Assembly (NCBI GenBank): GCA_005888755.1
Contig: VBBQ01000040.1
Span: 1 to 38,406, forward strand
From: Candidatus Bathyarchaeota archaeon
GTDB taxonomy: Archaea > Thermoproteota > Bathyarchaeia > 40CM-2-53-6
Direction: 5' to 3'
DNA: 38,406 nt
The position numbers were made by a program, and so were the translations under genes. Under the pieces are notes generated by a model. That model saw only the letters and a program-made list of their open reading frames with translations. It made no database searches and was not told the DNA's origin. The first letter of the stretch is position 1. Every line of letters begins with the position of its first letter. Below are positions 6,199 to 20,441 of the stretch, one piece after another.

Positions 6199-8592
6199 GT
6201 GTCTAATAATCCTTCAACTCTCTTCTCACCATCTCCAACTCATAATTTTCGGGAGTCCTCCTTGCTTGCGCTCCTCATCTTCGGAACGTTAAGCCTGATG
6301 TTTGCAGCCTCTTTCCCTGCAGTAGTCGCTCAATCTGTTTCATCCTGGAATCCGAACGTTTCCTGCAGTGCGCTGGTGACAACCTTCCAGAATGTCACAG
6401 GCGCCTCTGGAGCCATCTCGACTCCATGGCAGACAAGCTCTTCCACCGGAGGTGTTCCCAACAAGCGGGCCCTTTCTCCACCCTGCACGATCACCAACGT
6501 GAACGGCAAGCCTGTTTCGACACTCGTCCAGATTAACGGAATCTACCTGCCACACCTGACTTACGGTGACTGTTCCACAACCTACAACTCCGTCAATGGG
6601 GGCGGCCCTTACCCAGACCGTAATGGAGACGGAAAGTCAGACACGTTCTGCGATGATTACGGTGACATTCACTCAATTGGAGGAGGAAGTACCGGCATCC
6701 ACATTGAATTTGACCAGGACTGGATGGCCAGGGGATATTGTGGCCCTGGACACTTCCCATGCGACAACAACACCATCACCCAGTACTTCTCCACGGGAAG
6801 CACCTCCCTGGACGTTCAGGGATTTGTCTACTGGGACGCAGGCCACTGGGAGCTCCATCCATTCACAGCCTGGAAACTCTCCTCAAGCCCCCAGCCCCTA
6901 ACAACCAGTTTCACGTACTCCCCATCCAGTCCCTCACCTGCCACAGCGGTCAGCTTCACCGGAACAGCCACCGGAGGAACGGGGCCCTACACCTTCAACT
7001 GGAACTTCGGAGACGGCGGGTTAGCCACAGGCGCCACTGCAACCCACTCCTATTCCTCTGCAGGAAGATACACGGTGACACTGACAACAACTGACTCAAA
7101 GACCACTACCGCAACCTCCTCGCAAATCGTCAGTGTAGGCGCGCAGAATCAGACCACGTACAGGTTCAACCCTACAGATGATACATACGTTGAACAGGAT
7201 ACTCCAACGACTAACTATGGCACGTCTACGGAGATAACAACGGACACTAGTCCAATCAAAGACATTCTGATCAAGTTCAACGTCCAAGTCACAGGCCAGA
7301 TCACAAGCGCTACTCTAAGGCTCTATCAGATCGACACGTCCGACAAGGGTGGAAACTTTCACACCGCGCCCGCCAGTTGGACCGAGAGCAATGCAACTTG
7401 GAATAACGCACCGCCCGCCGACCCAGCCATCTTCTACTCACTAGGCCCAGTCACAACCAACATCTGGTACAACGTATCCATGACCTCGCTGGTTACCGGA
7501 AATGGGGTTGTGAGTCTAAGGGTCACATCATCATCACCAACAGGCGACGGGTCTCATTTCGCCTCTAAGGAAAACAGCGGCGGTGCATTCGCACCCCAGT
7601 TGATGATAACTACAACCCCATCCTCATCATCCAATACCGCTCCAACCCTGTCGGTTCCAGCGTCTCAAAACGTGAACGAACTGACGCCGCTAAGTTTCGC
7701 CGTCTTCGCCACTGACGATTCTTCCCAGACGATCACCATGACTTCTTCAGGGCTTCCGAGCGGAGCATCCTTTACCTCAACACCAACCAAAGGCTCGGTG
7801 ACTGGGACGTTCAACTGGACACCTAACGAAGCACAGGGACCCGGAAACTACACAATATCATTCACAGCCACGGACAATGGATCGCCCGCGCTCTCCACCA
7901 GCCAGCCCGTCCTCATAACAGTTAACGAGGCCAACGTTCCACCAGTCATCTCCGCCCCCTCATCTGCCACAGCCACCGTCAATACAACAACCTCATTCTC
8001 GGTCAGCGCGACTGATAGTGACTTACCGACGAATATGATCATCCTCACCACGGGGGGACTCGCCCCGGGGATGAGTTTCCCGACCGTTACAGGAAATCCT
8101 GCCAGTGGAACCTTCACCTTTGACCCGGACTCGACCCAAATTGGAACGACGTTCAACATCACCTTCACGGCTACAGACAACGGCTCCCCAACGATGTCCA
8201 CAACCAAGTCAATCCTCATCACTGTCAAACAAGCTTCCCCGCCAACCTTCGCCAGTCTGTCGTGGACGAAGAGACTCTCACTCTCCCATGCCGGCAACAC
8301 TCAGACGTGGACCGCGAAGGTCACCAACCCCAACCCGAACCTAGCATTATGGGTCAACGTTCGAATCGTCGGCTCAGACACGACGGGCAGGGTGACGTTC
8401 ATCGCTAACTCAGGGCCAGTCCTCATACCGGCAGGCCAAACAGTGACAATAACGGTCAACCAGAGCTTCGACTCTAGCGCCACAGGACTAAGCATCAACT
8501 TCACAGCGCAAATCGACTGGGGCTACTCGTCGAACACTCTCTCACAGCTGAGCACTTCGACCCAGAAGGGCTCCTTCAAGATCGCCGCATAA
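6199..8592 (+). CDS. Secreted multidomain protein: PKD, DNRLRE (CBM96-like) and Ig-like repeats
   Basis: 797 residues from a GTG start fixed by the TATA-like box at 6168-6176. A signal peptide spans about residues 18-45 (LLALLIFGTLSLMFAASFPAVVAQ). Residues about 50-230 are a unique N-terminal region containing DRNGDGKSDTFCDDYGD, a calcium-loop-like acidic turn. A PKD domain follows (about 233-313, with WNFGDG and AGRYTVTLT). Next is a DNRLRE domain (about 318-470; YRFNPTDDTYVEQ, NYGTSTEI, SATLRLYQI, WTESNATWNNAP). Then come two cadherin/He-PIG-like Ig repeats (about 480-675) and a final beta domain. There is no C-terminal membrane anchor, so it is probably released or held by its binding domains. 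Domains of this kind bind polysaccharide or other surfaces. An 18-bp near-repeat flanks the gene. Confidence 0.85.
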   Translation: MSNNPSTLFSPSPTHNFRESSLLALLIFGTLSLMFAASFPAVVAQSVSSWNPNVSCSALVTTFQNVTGASGAISTPWQTSSSTGGVPNKRALSPPCTITNVNGKPVSTLVQINGIYLPHLTYGDCSTTYNSVNGGGPYPDRNGDGKSDTFCDDYGDIHSIGGGSTGIHIEFDQDWMARGYCGPGHFPCDNNTITQYFSTGSTSLDVQGFVYWDAGHWELHPFTAWKLSSSPQPLTTSFTYSPSSPSPATAVSFTGTATGGTGPYTFNWNFGDGGLATGATATHSYSSAGRYTVTLTTTDSKTTTATSSQIVSVGAQNQTTYRFNPTDDTYVEQDTPTTNYGTSTEITTDTSPIKDILIKFNVQVTGQITSATLRLYQIDTSDKGGNFHTAPASWTESNATWNNAPPADPAIFYSLGPVTTNIWYNVSMTSLVTGNGVVSLRVTSSSPTGDGSHFASKENSGGAFAPQLMITTTPSSSSNTAPTLSVPASQNVNELTPLSFAVFATDDSSQTITMTSSGLPSGASFTSTPTKGSVTGTFNWTPNEAQGPGNYTISFTATDNGSPALSTSQPVLITVNEANVPPVISAPSSATATVNTTTSFSVSATDSDLPTNMIILTTGGLAPGMSFPTVTGNPASGTFTFDPDSTQIGTTFNITFTATDNGSPTMSTTKSILITVKQASPPTFASLSWTKRLSLSHAGNTQTWTAKVTNPNPNLALWVNVRIVGSDTTGRVTFIANSGPVLIPAGQTVTITVNQSFDSSATGLSINFTAQIDWGYSSNTLSQLSTSTQKGSFKIAA

Positions 8593-16607: not shown

Positions 16608-16967
16608 CTAGGTTGGGAATCTTAGACTAGGGGTCGTCGGATGCAGCCTATCTGATACAACTCTCTCTTTGAGATAGACAAACCTGTCCGGCAGTGAATC
16701 GTCATAGTCGAAATTCGGGGGCAGGGCGAACTCCTTGTACAGCTCAACTACCGTCCTGTAAGCGATGACACGCGCACTTGTCCCTAACCTCTCCATGAGT
16801 GTCTTCACAACATCCTCAAATCTGCCGGGGATATCTTCCCTGCTAATGCCCTTCTTGTTCAGGAAATCGTAGATCCAGTCCCGGATGGGTCCGCCCATTC
16901 CTTGTAGGACGCGGTCGAACCAGTAGTCGACAGCCAGTTGAAACCCAGGCATTAAGTTCGTTCGCAT
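16608..16967 (-). CDS. Small unknown protein, paralogue of the one at 18692-19054
   Basis: 119 residues from an ATG. It is helical with no membrane segment. Landmarks are PIRDWIYDFLNKKGISREDI, RFEDVVKTLMERLG, ARVIAYRTVVELYKEF and SLPDRFVYLKERVVSD. The protein at 18692-19054 has the same landmarks in the same order (RFDDVIEVLTRVFG, TRVFVHMTVTELYKEY, SLKDQIALLREKVVSD), roughly a third or more identical. The two genes flank the KaiC-like ATPase at 17079-18656; this one lies downstream of it in the same direction, 111 bases after its stop. I infer that they are accessory or adaptor proteins of the ATPase. No known family recognised. Confidence 0.65.
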   Translation of the reverse strand: MRTNLMPGFQLAVDYWFDRVLQGMGGPIRDWIYDFLNKKGISREDIPGRFEDVVKTLMERLGTSARVIAYRTVVELYKEFALPPNFDYDDSLPDRFVYLKERVVSDRLHPTTPSLRFPT

Positions 16968-17078
16968 GGATCGCCCAGACTACGTGGGAAAACGAATGAG
17001 GGAACAGCCGGATACGCCTAGCGTTTCCAGCATTCGAGACAAGCGGTAACCCCTCTTTCCGCCTCCCGCGAGCATCAA

Positions 17079-18656
17079 CTAGACGATTTCGGTCAAAGAC
17101 AGTCTAGGGTAGCCTCGTTCAAAGCGGAATTTTACGCCGTGAACGTTTGTAATCGGTTTGACGCCGTAGATGAGCAGTGACCCGTTGACTGTCTGCATCT
17201 TCAAGTGGTAGTCAACGGCTCTCAGAAGCTCTTCTCTGAGACTGGTCGGTCGTGAGATTACGCCAACGCTGAGTGCCCCTGCATCACGGATGCCTGCCCC
17301 TATTTCGGCGATCCCCGGCAGACCTAGAGTTTCACCGTAAAGCTGGACTGCCTTGTCGAAATCGTATTTTAGCACCCTCGCGGGTGAGATGGCTCCAAGC
17401 TCGTTCCATGCATTATTGAACGCGGCTAGGTCTCCTGTTAGATTGCCTGAAAGCTTCACCCGCCATTTCTCATCGCGAAGAGCCTGGTTGAACTCCGCGA
17501 TCCGGACCCTCTCGTTCAGTACCATGTCTCCAACGTATGTCTTCAGAGACTCAGCAATGTTCTGTGAACTGAATATGCTGTAGGGAATGATGAACGCAGT
17601 CCCTCCCTGATTGATGAAGTTCGCTGCCATTATGTCGAGGAGAAGCTTCACGGAGTGCGGTGAGACCGTACTGTTGACGTCCAACAGAAGAGAAGAACCC
17701 TTCCTGACTCCACCGTCCAGCAACGCGTCAAGATCCGGACTACCGGTTGAGTAGGAGAACTGGGAATTACGGACAGGGCTGAGTAGCTTCGGATTGACCG
17801 ATCTATCAATGTCAAAATGAAATTCAACCCTCGGTAGGAGGGTGAACTTGCCCATATCGAGTGAAAACAGCGCCCCTTGGGTGTGGAGCCTGAACCCGCG
17901 AAGCTTGTTGACAACTACGCTTCTCACAGTCCTATCTTCCAAGTGGGTTAGCGACAGTGTAACGATGCCGTCCACGAGATAGTCGAGCTTAGGAGAGTTT
18001 TCGCTCTCGCTCACAATCACCGCGCTTAGTTTGCTCTCATCCAGATCTTGAAAGATCGCTGTCTCCAGGGCGCGACGTTCATCTTCCGTCGCGCTCGCTA
18101 CCGCGCCCTCCCAGCTATCAATAACTATGATGCCTTTCTGTTTGGCCCGTTTCAATGCAAGAATTCTGTCAACAATGCTCGCCGCTCCTTCTCTTCGGTT
18201 CTCTCCTCCTACCGGCATCCGTTTCCCCCCGGCCTCTTTTCCAGACATAGAATCGAACACCTCATGGATTCCAGGGAAGTGTCGCTGCAGTTTCGAAGAA
18301 GAGACCCGGCTCGACACGTACACTTTATTGGCAGAAATTATGTGGGCACCGATGCGAGTTCCTTTCATCTTGTTAAGAAGTTCAAGGGCGAGAGTTGTTT
18401 TCCCAGTACCAGGGGCCCCTTGTATTAGCAGAACATTTCCTGGCGATTCTAGGAATCTTGACATAAGGTCCAGAAGGTCGCTAGGCTTAGACTTCTCAAC
18501 ACCCACTTGTCCCGCTTCAATCTGGGGTTCTAGCGCCGTTCCGTCCTCGCCGGAGACGTCTTCAGCCAGCATATTCTCGCGCCGAGACGGTGCTTCTCGT
18601 GCGACAAGCTTTGTGTAACCAGACAACGGATTCCACGGTTGAACACAACTGAACAT
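17079..18656 (-). CDS. KaiC/RAD55-like ATPase with one intact and one degenerate RecA domain
   Basis: 525 residues. Domain 1 (about 55-295) has a perfect Walker A, GAPGTGKTT at 80-88, and a Walker B-like strand GIIVIDSWEGA at 175-185. Domain 2 (about 300-525) starts like a KaiC module (YSTGSPDLDALLDGGVRKGSSLLL, 302-324), but the P-loop position holds DVNSTVSPHSV, so ATP binding is probably lost. The general plan recalls RAD55/KaiC-type regulators and the P-loop regulator GvpD. The first 28 residues may not be translated: a second Met at codon 29 (MLAEDVSG) starts at complement 18572, and the longer form leaves only about 35 bases to the divergent gene's ATG. Flanked on both sides by paralogous small proteins. 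A signalling or gene-control role is inferred. Confidence 0.75.
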   Translation of the reverse strand: MFSCVQPWNPLSGYTKLVAREAPSRRENMLAEDVSGEDGTALEPQIEAGQVGVEKSKPSDLLDLMSRFLESPGNVLLIQGAPGTGKTTLALELLNKMKGTRIGAHIISANKVYVSSRVSSSKLQRHFPGIHEVFDSMSGKEAGGKRMPVGGENRREGAASIVDRILALKRAKQKGIIVIDSWEGAVASATEDERRALETAIFQDLDESKLSAVIVSESENSPKLDYLVDGIVTLSLTHLEDRTVRSVVVNKLRGFRLHTQGALFSLDMGKFTLLPRVEFHFDIDRSVNPKLLSPVRNSQFSYSTGSPDLDALLDGGVRKGSSLLLDVNSTVSPHSVKLLLDIMAANFINQGGTAFIIPYSIFSSQNIAESLKTYVGDMVLNERVRIAEFNQALRDEKWRVKLSGNLTGDLAAFNNAWNELGAISPARVLKYDFDKAVQLYGETLGLPGIAEIGAGIRDAGALSVGVISRPTSLREELLRAVDYHLKMQTVNGSLLIYGVKPITNVHGVKFRFERGYPRLSLTEIV

Positions 18657-18691
18657 TACGGCAACTATTGAATGCGCGAGGGGACTATTCT

Positions 18692-19054
18692 ATGCCGACC
18701 ACGGCAGCAGAAACATTTCAGTCTATCATGAACCGATGTTTCACCACTGTTGTTGAAGTCATACTTGGCAGAACGGTCAGGGAGGAGATTTTTCAGTTAC
18801 TGGAGAGGAATGGGATCAAACCTGTCGAAATTTCCGTCAGGTTTGACGACGTGATCGAAGTCCTCACGAGAGTCTTCGGAAACAGCACTCGCGTCTTTGT
18901 TCATATGACGGTGACAGAACTCTACAAAGAGTATTCTCTGGGGGCGGCGGGCTTCGCGTTCGGCGAGTCTCTAAAGGACCAAATCGCCCTGTTAAGGGAG
19001 AAAGTGGTGAGCGACCTTCTGAAGCCAAGGCACTATACCAGCATCGACCCGTGA
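18692..19054 (+). CDS. Small unknown protein, paralogue of the one at 16608-16967
   Basis: 120 residues from the ATG at 18692; an in-frame TTG at 18668 would add eight residues. It is helical and soluble, with the landmarks TVREEIFQLLERNGI, RFDDVIEVLTRVFG, TRVFVHMTVTELYKEY and LREKVVSDLLKP. These match the gene on the other side of the KaiC-like ATPase. It is divergent from that ATPase with a very short intergenic region, so the two are likely to share regulation. Unknown family; a partner of the ATPase is inferred. Confidence 0.65.
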   Translation: MPTTAAETFQSIMNRCFTTVVEVILGRTVREEIFQLLERNGIKPVEISVRFDDVIEVLTRVFGNSTRVFVHMTVTELYKEYSLGAAGFAFGESLKDQIALLREKVVSDLLKPRHYTSIDP

Positions 19055-19164: not shown

Positions 19165-19815
19165 ATGCTTTGCAATGTCATTTCTCTTCATGGAAGGAGG
19201 ACGTTTCCTCTGAAGACCAGCTTGACGCAAACTGGCAAGAGGCGTAGGATGAGGAAACCGGAGAACAAAGGTGCGGCGAGAAGTCGCCGGCAACAGCCAT
19301 TGAAGGCCAAGAAAATTGTGAAGAAAGTAGATTCTGTCTTGGGACCCGGTAAGACGGCTCCTAATTTTTCTCTTAACAGTACACCGGACCAGAAGGTGTC
19401 CCTGAACGATTTCCGAGGACAGCCTGTGATTCTCGCTTTCTACCCTGCCGACTGGAGTCCCGTGTGCACCGACCAGTTATCATTGTATGCGATGGTGATG
19501 CCAGAATTCAAAAAGTTCAACGCAGAACTCCTTGCGATTTCAGTCGACAATATCTGGTCCCACTTAGCCTTCGCTAAGGACCGGAAGCTCAACTTCCCCG
19601 TTCTAGCAGATTTCGAGCCGAAGGGATCTATATCCAAGAAATATGGCGCTTACAAGGAGAAGATCGGTGAGTCCGCTCGGGCGCTCTTCGTGATCGACGA
19701 CAAGGGAGTCATCAGGTGGAGCCATCTCTCCCCTGACGGGATCAACCCTGGAGCCGACGGCATCTTATCAGCCCTAGAGAATATGAACAAGGCCCAACCG
19801 GCAGAGAAGAACTGA
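19165..19815 (+). CDS. Peroxiredoxin (AhpC/TSA, Bcp-like)
   Basis: The open frame gives 216 residues from the ATG at 19165. The TATA-like box at 19143-19152 suggests the message starts downstream of that codon, so the true start is more likely the TTG at 19222 or the ATG at 19249 (188 residues). The N-terminus is lysine/arginine rich and variable. The enzyme domain starts at about residue 60: GKTAPNFSL, VSLNDFRGQPVILAFYPADW, and the peroxidatic cysteine C101 in SPVCTDQ. The usual Thr-x-x-Cys is Ser-Pro-Val-Cys here. No second conserved cysteine is visible, so it needs an external thiol partner. That is probably the DsbA-like protein encoded eight bases downstream. It reduces peroxides in the cytoplasm. 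Confidence 0.88.
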   Translation: MLCNVISLHGRRTFPLKTSLTQTGKRRRMRKPENKGAARSRRQQPLKAKKIVKKVDSVLGPGKTAPNFSLNSTPDQKVSLNDFRGQPVILAFYPADWSPVCTDQLSLYAMVMPEFKKFNAELLAISVDNIWSHLAFAKDRKLNFPVLADFEPKGSISKKYGAYKEKIGESARALFVIDDKGVIRWSHLSPDGINPGADGILSALENMNKAQPAEKN

Positions 19816-19823
19816 GCTCGAAA

Positions 19824-20441
19824 ATGTCAGGAACGACAACGGTTGCACGAAAGCGAACCGCAAGGAAGACCCTGCTAGAACCAACAAGTAGGGAAACCGC
19901 GGAAAAATATCAGGCTCCGAGGCTGGAAATTCCGGTAACCGCTGAACGCGATCACATAGAAGGGCCCGTGAATGCCTCTCTTACGCTGGTCGAGTATGGT
20001 GATTATCAGTGTCCCTATTGTGGCGCAGCATATCCCGAAGTGAAAAAGGTCCAGAAGGAACTCGGATCTGAACTACGGTTCGTGTTTCGCAACTTTCCGT
20101 TGACAAACATGCACGAGCATGCTATGAACGCTGCTGAGACAGCGGAGGCAGCCTCTGCCCAGGGAAAGTTTTGGCCCATGCACGACTTTCTCTACGAACA
20201 CCAGGCAACTCTCGGCGATTCTAGTGTCGCCCTCGGTTACGCAAAGAAGCTGGGTTTGGACACTCAGAGATTCGAGCGTGAGGTAGCTCAGCACATGTAT
20301 CAAAAACGGATCAAGGACGATTTCATGGGTGGAGTGAGGAGTGGTGTCAACGGCACGCCAACATTTTACGTCAACGGGGTCAGACACGACGAAGACGCAA
20401 TCGCCAAGGCCCTAATCGAAGCCTTGAGTCATACTAAATAG
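19824..20441 (+). CDS. DsbA-family thioredoxin-fold oxidoreductase, cytoplasmic
   Basis: 205 residues from an ATG, eight bases after the peroxiredoxin stop. A basic, low-complexity N-terminus (about 30 residues) is followed by a DsbA-like domain: LTLVEYGDYQCPYCG with the CPYC active site at C63-C66, FRNFPLTNMHEHA, a helical insert, and GVNGTPTFYVNGVRHD carrying the cis-proline. There is no signal peptide or lipobox, so it acts in the cytoplasm, unlike classical DsbA. Pairing with a one-cysteine peroxiredoxin suggests that it reduces that enzyme or shares a thiol-repair role. Confidence 0.87.
   Translation: MSGTTTVARKRTARKTLLEPTSRETAEKYQAPRLEIPVTAERDHIEGPVNASLTLVEYGDYQCPYCGAAYPEVKKVQKELGSELRFVFRNFPLTNMHEHAMNAAETAEAASAQGKFWPMHDFLYEHQATLGDSSVALGYAKKLGLDTQRFEREVAQHMYQKRIKDDFMGGVRSGVNGTPTFYVNGVRHDEDAIAKALIEALSHTK

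Follow-up and report, generated by a model that had tools for sequence, protein, structure and literature searches.

A GvpD-like KaiC-family ATPase between two S-family genes in Candidatus Bathyarchaeota: a probable switch with a candidate Death-domain-like adaptor

Does a KaiC-like ATPase gene enclosed by two homologous small genes represent a dedicated regulatory unit? The question is raised by a stretch of Candidatus Bathyarchaeota DNA of 38,406 nucleotides, which is referred to here as the window. A preliminary description of this DNA had reported three open reading frames (ORFs), with an ATPase gene between two genes for small proteins, and had read them as a three-part switch in which the two small proteins serve as adaptors. 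The positions and strands were borne out by the ORFs: the gene for the first small protein, S1 (119 aa; 16608..16967, minus strand), lies downstream of the ATPase gene and on the same strand, and the gene for the second, S2 (120 aa; 18692..19054, plus strand), diverges from it. The closest relatives of the locus were found in soil Candidatus Bathyarchaeota metagenome assemblies.

Gene layout and domain composition of the ATPase

The ATPase ORF is open to position 18656 (17079-18656, minus strand, 525 codons). However, the start codon is probably M29 at base 18572, because the orthologues in L012, L013, L015, L016 and L017 comprise 497 codons and have no upstream start; the gene would thus occupy 17079..18572 on the minus strand, with 497 codons. 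The 28-codon N-terminal extension was rejected as coding sequence, since several orthologues have no start there. With the start at M29, about 119 bp (18573..18691) lie between the start codons of the ATPase gene and of S2, which diverge from each other. This intergenic region contains the block GACAAGCTTTGTGTAAC at 18603-18619, 5' of the ATPase start, which is kept in 10 of 10 loci and is possibly a regulatory site. Purifying selection acts on each of the three genes (dN/dS 0.03-0.22) and is strongest for S1 (0.03, measured against near relatives). Genes for a peroxiredoxin and a DsbA-like thioredoxin (window 19165-20441) lie immediately 3' of S2 and are kept in nine block relatives.

The middle gene had been described as encoding a KaiC-like ATPase, and this held: the protein matched the Pfam family KaiC (PF06745) at E 1.5e-13 and 51.1 bits (cut-off 26.6). 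It also matched GvpD_P-loop (PF07088) at E 4.5e-13 and 49.9 bits (cut-off 24). The score for GvpD basic region 2 (PF20440) was 23.9 bits, which is below the cut-off of 27.9 that order-wide relatives of the ATPase exceed, and judging by its sequence the protein appears to be GvpD-like only and not a GvpD. In domain 1 the Walker A motif GAPGTGKTT (18393..18419, minus strand) is invariant in nine orthologues, and the orthologue alignment reveals a Walker B-like stretch, IIVID or IIVVD, at 18117..18131 (minus strand). With a domain above the cut-off and both Walker motifs intact, the protein belongs to the KaiC family. Domain 2 (17082..17804, minus strand) was recognised as a degenerate KaiC domain by alignment with the second domains of order-wide GvpD-like ATPases and by hhalign. 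It has retained the KaiC hallmark STG-x2-DLD-x2-L-x-GG-x2-KGS and has no P-loop, and it matched active KaiC domains with a probability of 93.7 (E 1.9e-7). Because the hallmark is kept, the P-loop is gone and the profile still matches KaiC, the ATPase is a KaiC/inactive-KaiC protein. A structure model built from nine near-identical orthologues reached a pLDDT of 38. The same genome encodes a close paralogue of the ATPase (at C12, 50% identity), and the 11.5-kb stretch around it contains no S gene.

The S family and the origin of the three-gene order

S1 and S2 share 38% identity over 112 residues (75 bits, E 1e-23). This E value shows that the similarity is not due to chance and that the two small proteins are homologous; a non-significant alignment had been named in the preliminary description as one outcome that would refute its reading. 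Both ORFs were assigned by their mutual homology and by the family HMM, which S1 matches at E 7e-42. An iterative profile gathered 106 S proteins from the neighbourhood loci of 21 same-family genomes. The genome of the window itself yielded 10 S matches at 6 places, and of 300 genomes sampled across the phylum, 92 encode S at E 1e-6 or better. Scanned viral contigs yielded no S2, and NCBIfam offered nothing informative for S.

Neither S1 nor S2 matched Pfam NitrOD5 (PF11537) at E up to 1, and on this evidence they would not be filed as NitrOD5 in the strict sense; single S relatives gave weak matches to NitrOD5 or NitrOD2. When the S1/S2 profile was compared by hhalign with a profile of outgroup S proteins and three REC-attached NitrOD5 domains, the probability was 97.8 (E 1.2e-12). 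The S HMM also reached REC-NitrOD5 proteins at E values from 1.5e-8 to 8e-7, with 0 of 546 shuffled or reversed controls recovered, and in the one such protein that was checked (relative L206) both the REC domain and NitrOD5 were confirmed. By profile comparison, then, the S family is tied to NitrOD5 and to the archaeal Death-domain-like superfamily, and it occurs both as multiple stand-alone copies and attached to REC. The outgroup S profile led to a protein of solved structure, PH0832 (PDB 2p9x), at E 2.9e-5. The S2 model is all-helical and of low confidence (mean pLDDT 60); its top Foldseek match at this pLDDT was again PH0832 (probability 0.98), and no direct match to a Death domain was obtained.

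The ordered sequence landmarks that had first drawn attention to S1 and S2 are real. However, they are carried by the whole sub-clade, including copies that lie far from the ATPase or have no KaiC neighbour, and therefore they are uninformative about a shared partner. In the tree of S proteins, which is built on few columns and leaves many forks unresolved, the separation of S1 from S2 is among the supported branches: S1 falls into a clade of 5 rows (SH-aLRT 100) and S2 into a separate clade of 14 rows (SH-aLRT 98). The S2 clade includes S genes of other genomes that diverge from a KaiC cassette. The idea that the bracket arose by tandem duplication at this locus was rejected because S1 and S2 sit in separate clades.

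The bracketing of the ATPase gene by S genes was seen in the window and in L010-L014, and over a longer distance in L016 and L083. Where the bracket is kept, the gap between the ATPase and S1 genes ranges from 0.1 to 4.2 kb; it is about 15 kb in G019. In L016 and L083, genes for secreted proteins are inserted in this gap. The window encodes at 6199-8592 a 797-aa protein with a signal-peptide-like N-terminus. Its homologues adjoin the ATPase gene as insertions in L016, L018, L083 and L098, which marks a spreading family. Orthologues of S1 (75-81% identity), of S2 (55-73%) or of both lie away from the ATPase in G001, G004, G009, G010, G014, G016 and G019; some of these genomes are incomplete, and for this reason the claim concerns separate location and not absence. 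Genomes with the bracket also share most of the gene order between 15.4 and 24.5 kb. Since synteny in the clade extends over this whole block, no particular cause has to be sought for the bracket. Judged from these comparisons of sequence and gene order, the bracket is not a conserved unit, and the symmetrical order of the three genes appears as a local accident of one clade.

Recurrence of S genes beside KaiC-family genes

The preliminary description had proposed a survey of gene neighbourhoods, and in this survey S genes were found recurrently near KaiC-family ATPases. Of 60 own-family loci, 34 have a KaiC-family gene no more than 1 kb from S, a count that is somewhat inflated because seven of the 60 were retrieved with the ATPase as the query; in 26 of the 60 (about 43%) the 3 kb around S contain no KaiC gene. 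In sister families, where the loci were picked by S alone, a KaiC-family gene adjoins S in 10 of 12 loci, and the S genes lie downstream of it on the same strand at a distance of at most 75 bp. In the phylum sample 6 of 18 loci have a KaiC-family gene at 1 kb or less from S. The genome of the window contains 25 KaiC-domain hits, and at three of its six S loci the distance to a KaiC-domain gene is 500 bp or less (binomial P about 3e-4). A KaiC-family gene adjacent to a gene of the Death-domain-like kind is thus recurrent in related genomes.

The S loci fall into five recurrent kinds of arrangement. In one, S diverges from a cassette of S', an HTH protein, KaiC and a membrane protein, whose genes often overlap by four bases; this combination is repeated in many same-family genomes. 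The genome of the window harbours one intact five-gene cassette (L020:3294-5897, G000:C10) and a decayed copy of it (L022:3328-5835, G000:C8), in which a frameshift breaks S and KaiC is reduced to short remnants, with HTH and S' still open. In another, a GvpD-like ATPase gene is followed by S; this is the arrangement of the 10 of 12 S-picked loci from sister families within the order, and it recurs in several distant families. Double KaiC proteins near tandem S genes and the window type, with S genes on both sides of a GvpD-like ATPase, are two further kinds. In the fifth, S adjoins genes for a V4R-domain protein and a MinD/ParA-type ATPase, as seen in six genomes (L021:5347-9034, L104, L124, L128, L138 and L141). 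Four-base gene overlaps occur in several KaiC-S pairs and cassettes. A 620-aa membrane protein with no Pfam match (L209:8171-10407, G000:C16) is overlapped by an S gene by four bases, and the C-terminal part of this protein, judged by eye, resembles an inactive KaiC domain. In more distant relatives, S adjoins or is fused to PAS-histidine kinases; in L259:2318-5434, L260:4805-7582 and L261:5028-8630 the S domain forms the N-terminus of PAS-histidine kinases of 925-1200 aa.

Three explanations that compete with an adaptor role of S2 at a KaiC-type switch were weighed against these data. The dedicated three-part switch, in which S1 and S2 would compete for the same ATPase or bridge two of its states and the gene order would reflect this, is in keeping with the bracket in the window and its relatives and with the strong purifying selection on both S genes and the ATPase. 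We nevertheless consider it improbable, given that S1 and S2 are not sister paralogues, that the distance between ATPase and S1 varies and admits foreign genes, that orthologues lie away from the ATPase in up to seven same-family genomes and that the surrounding block is syntenic throughout the clade. What survives of the earlier proposal is a plausible adaptor role for S; a dedicated unit of two matched adaptors is not supported.

It also seems unlikely that the S proteins are small, winged-helix-like, DNA-binding autoregulators controlled by the ATPase in the way GvpD controls GvpE. Weak matches of 7 of 71 S members to Pfam PF0610-like_N (best E 0.0015), the conserved block inside the divergent control region and the precedent of GvpD, which binds GvpE, an activator, and reduces its level (PMC4390858), would fit such a role. 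However, an HTH protein is already encoded separately, along with S' and KaiC, in the recurrent cassettes, the N-terminus of a PAS-histidine kinase is an odd place for a DNA-binding domain, and both structure and profile comparisons gave PH0832 and no winged helix as the best match. Finally, two expanded families could meet by chance or through shared synteny, and the 25 KaiC-domain hits and six S loci of the genome, the own-family loci remote from KaiC and the bias from the seven ATPase-query loci all speak for mostly incidental adjacency. This explanation is disfavoured as very improbable by the proximity measured within the genome, by the sister-family pairs in loci picked by S alone and by the four-base overlaps.

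A probable switch and its relation to known systems

The reading that we consider probable is that the ATPase is a GvpD-like KaiC/inactive-KaiC switch, with S2 as its likeliest cognate adaptor and S1 as a nearby paralogue. The homologies, domain make-up, recurrent adjacency, fusions and purifying selection were computed directly, and from them we infer that the KaiC-type ATPase is bound by an S protein, which would couple the ATP-dependent state of the ATPase to an input or output, such as a regulator, a sensor kinase or a membrane protein; any direction of the signal and any physiological output are inferred in the same way. Fusions of this domain to histidine kinases and to a receiver domain make the adaptor role plausible. 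S2, which has a common divergent control region with the ATPase, would be preferred over S1 as the partner, and S1, a paralogue from another clade, may act elsewhere or serve another ATPase. Weighing against this reading are the C12 paralogue with no S gene in its surroundings, the share of own-family S loci remote from KaiC, the low confidence of the S2 model on which the fold match depends, and the missing match of S1 and S2 to Pfam NitrOD5. A bolder variant, which we put forward as doubtful, is that several paralogous S adaptors of the genus, S1 and S2 included, form a shared pool docking exchangeably on different KaiC-family ATPases, such as the GvpD-like ATPase of the window and the single-domain KaiC of the S-S'-HTH-KaiC-membrane cassettes. 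If true, the archaeal system would be an adaptor-exchange network and not a set of isolated pairs, and competition for the ATPases could be likened to that of KaiA, KaiB and output factors on KaiC.

For the GvpD-like switch with S2 as its adaptor, the nearest experimental precedent is GvpD, the haloarchaeal gas vesicle gene repressor (PF07088 and PF20440), whose effect on GvpE is tied to a functional P-loop by a study cited in PMC4390858. The P-loop domain of the ATPase belongs to the same Pfam family and its second domain is related to GvpD basic region 2. However, the second domain falls short of the PF20440 cut-off, and the proposed partner is an S protein and not a GvpE-type activator. No gas vesicle genes were seen in the window, and a GvpA search of the genome gave no match, as did its control. 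PH0832 of Pyrococcus horikoshii, the best profile and fold match of S, differs from it in having only about 10-13% identity.

Two further reports concern Death-domain-like proteins. Galperin et al. 2018 (PMC5847659), citing Makarova et al. 2017 (mBio), apply the term archaeal "Death domain-like" to NitrOD2, NitrOD4 and NitrOD5 (PF11537, PF18550). S resembles these domains in being a helical domain of about 100 residues that stands alone in several copies per genome and is also attached to REC, and in its profile-profile homology to them. S1 and S2 differ in being too divergent for the Pfam models and in their lineage-specific sub-clade signature (RF[ED]DV / T-V-x-E-L-Y-K-E), and the fusions of S to histidine kinases are not among the NitrOD architectures in the available part of PMC5847659. 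Makarova et al. 2016 (PMC4858521) described in type IV pilus loci a gene for a KaiC-like ATPase (arCOG01174) paired with one for an alpha-helical Death-domain-like protein (arCOG03758), which was suggested to substitute for KaiB. In the kind of proteins and in their arrangement, a KaiC-family gene beside a small alpha-helical Death-domain-like gene, the present locus is alike; it differs in that its ATPase is of the GvpD-like kind and has a second domain that is inactive, and in that no pilus genes were seen around it. The view that no such unit had been described is thus mistaken as regards the kind, since pairs of KaiC and a Death-domain-like partner were proposed between 2016 and 2018 (PMC4858521, PMC5847659).

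The pairing of KaiC with a Death-domain-like protein was reportedly extended by Makarova et al. in 2017 (mBio) to Death-domain-like adaptors of KaiC hubs. The S-S'-HTH-KaiC-membrane cassette, the order-wide operon of GvpD-like KaiC and S, and the fusions of S to histidine kinases are possibly new, or may already be contained in that work. The KaiC-S operons across several families of one order, the five-gene cassette and PH0832 provide concrete pairs for binding tests, and the histidine kinase fusions point to a way in which one adaptor domain might serve both KaiC and two-component signalling. The proposal that KaiC-family ATPases are central archaeal signalling hubs with Death-domain-like adaptors is based, in PMC4858521 and in the available part of PMC5847659, on comparative genomics.
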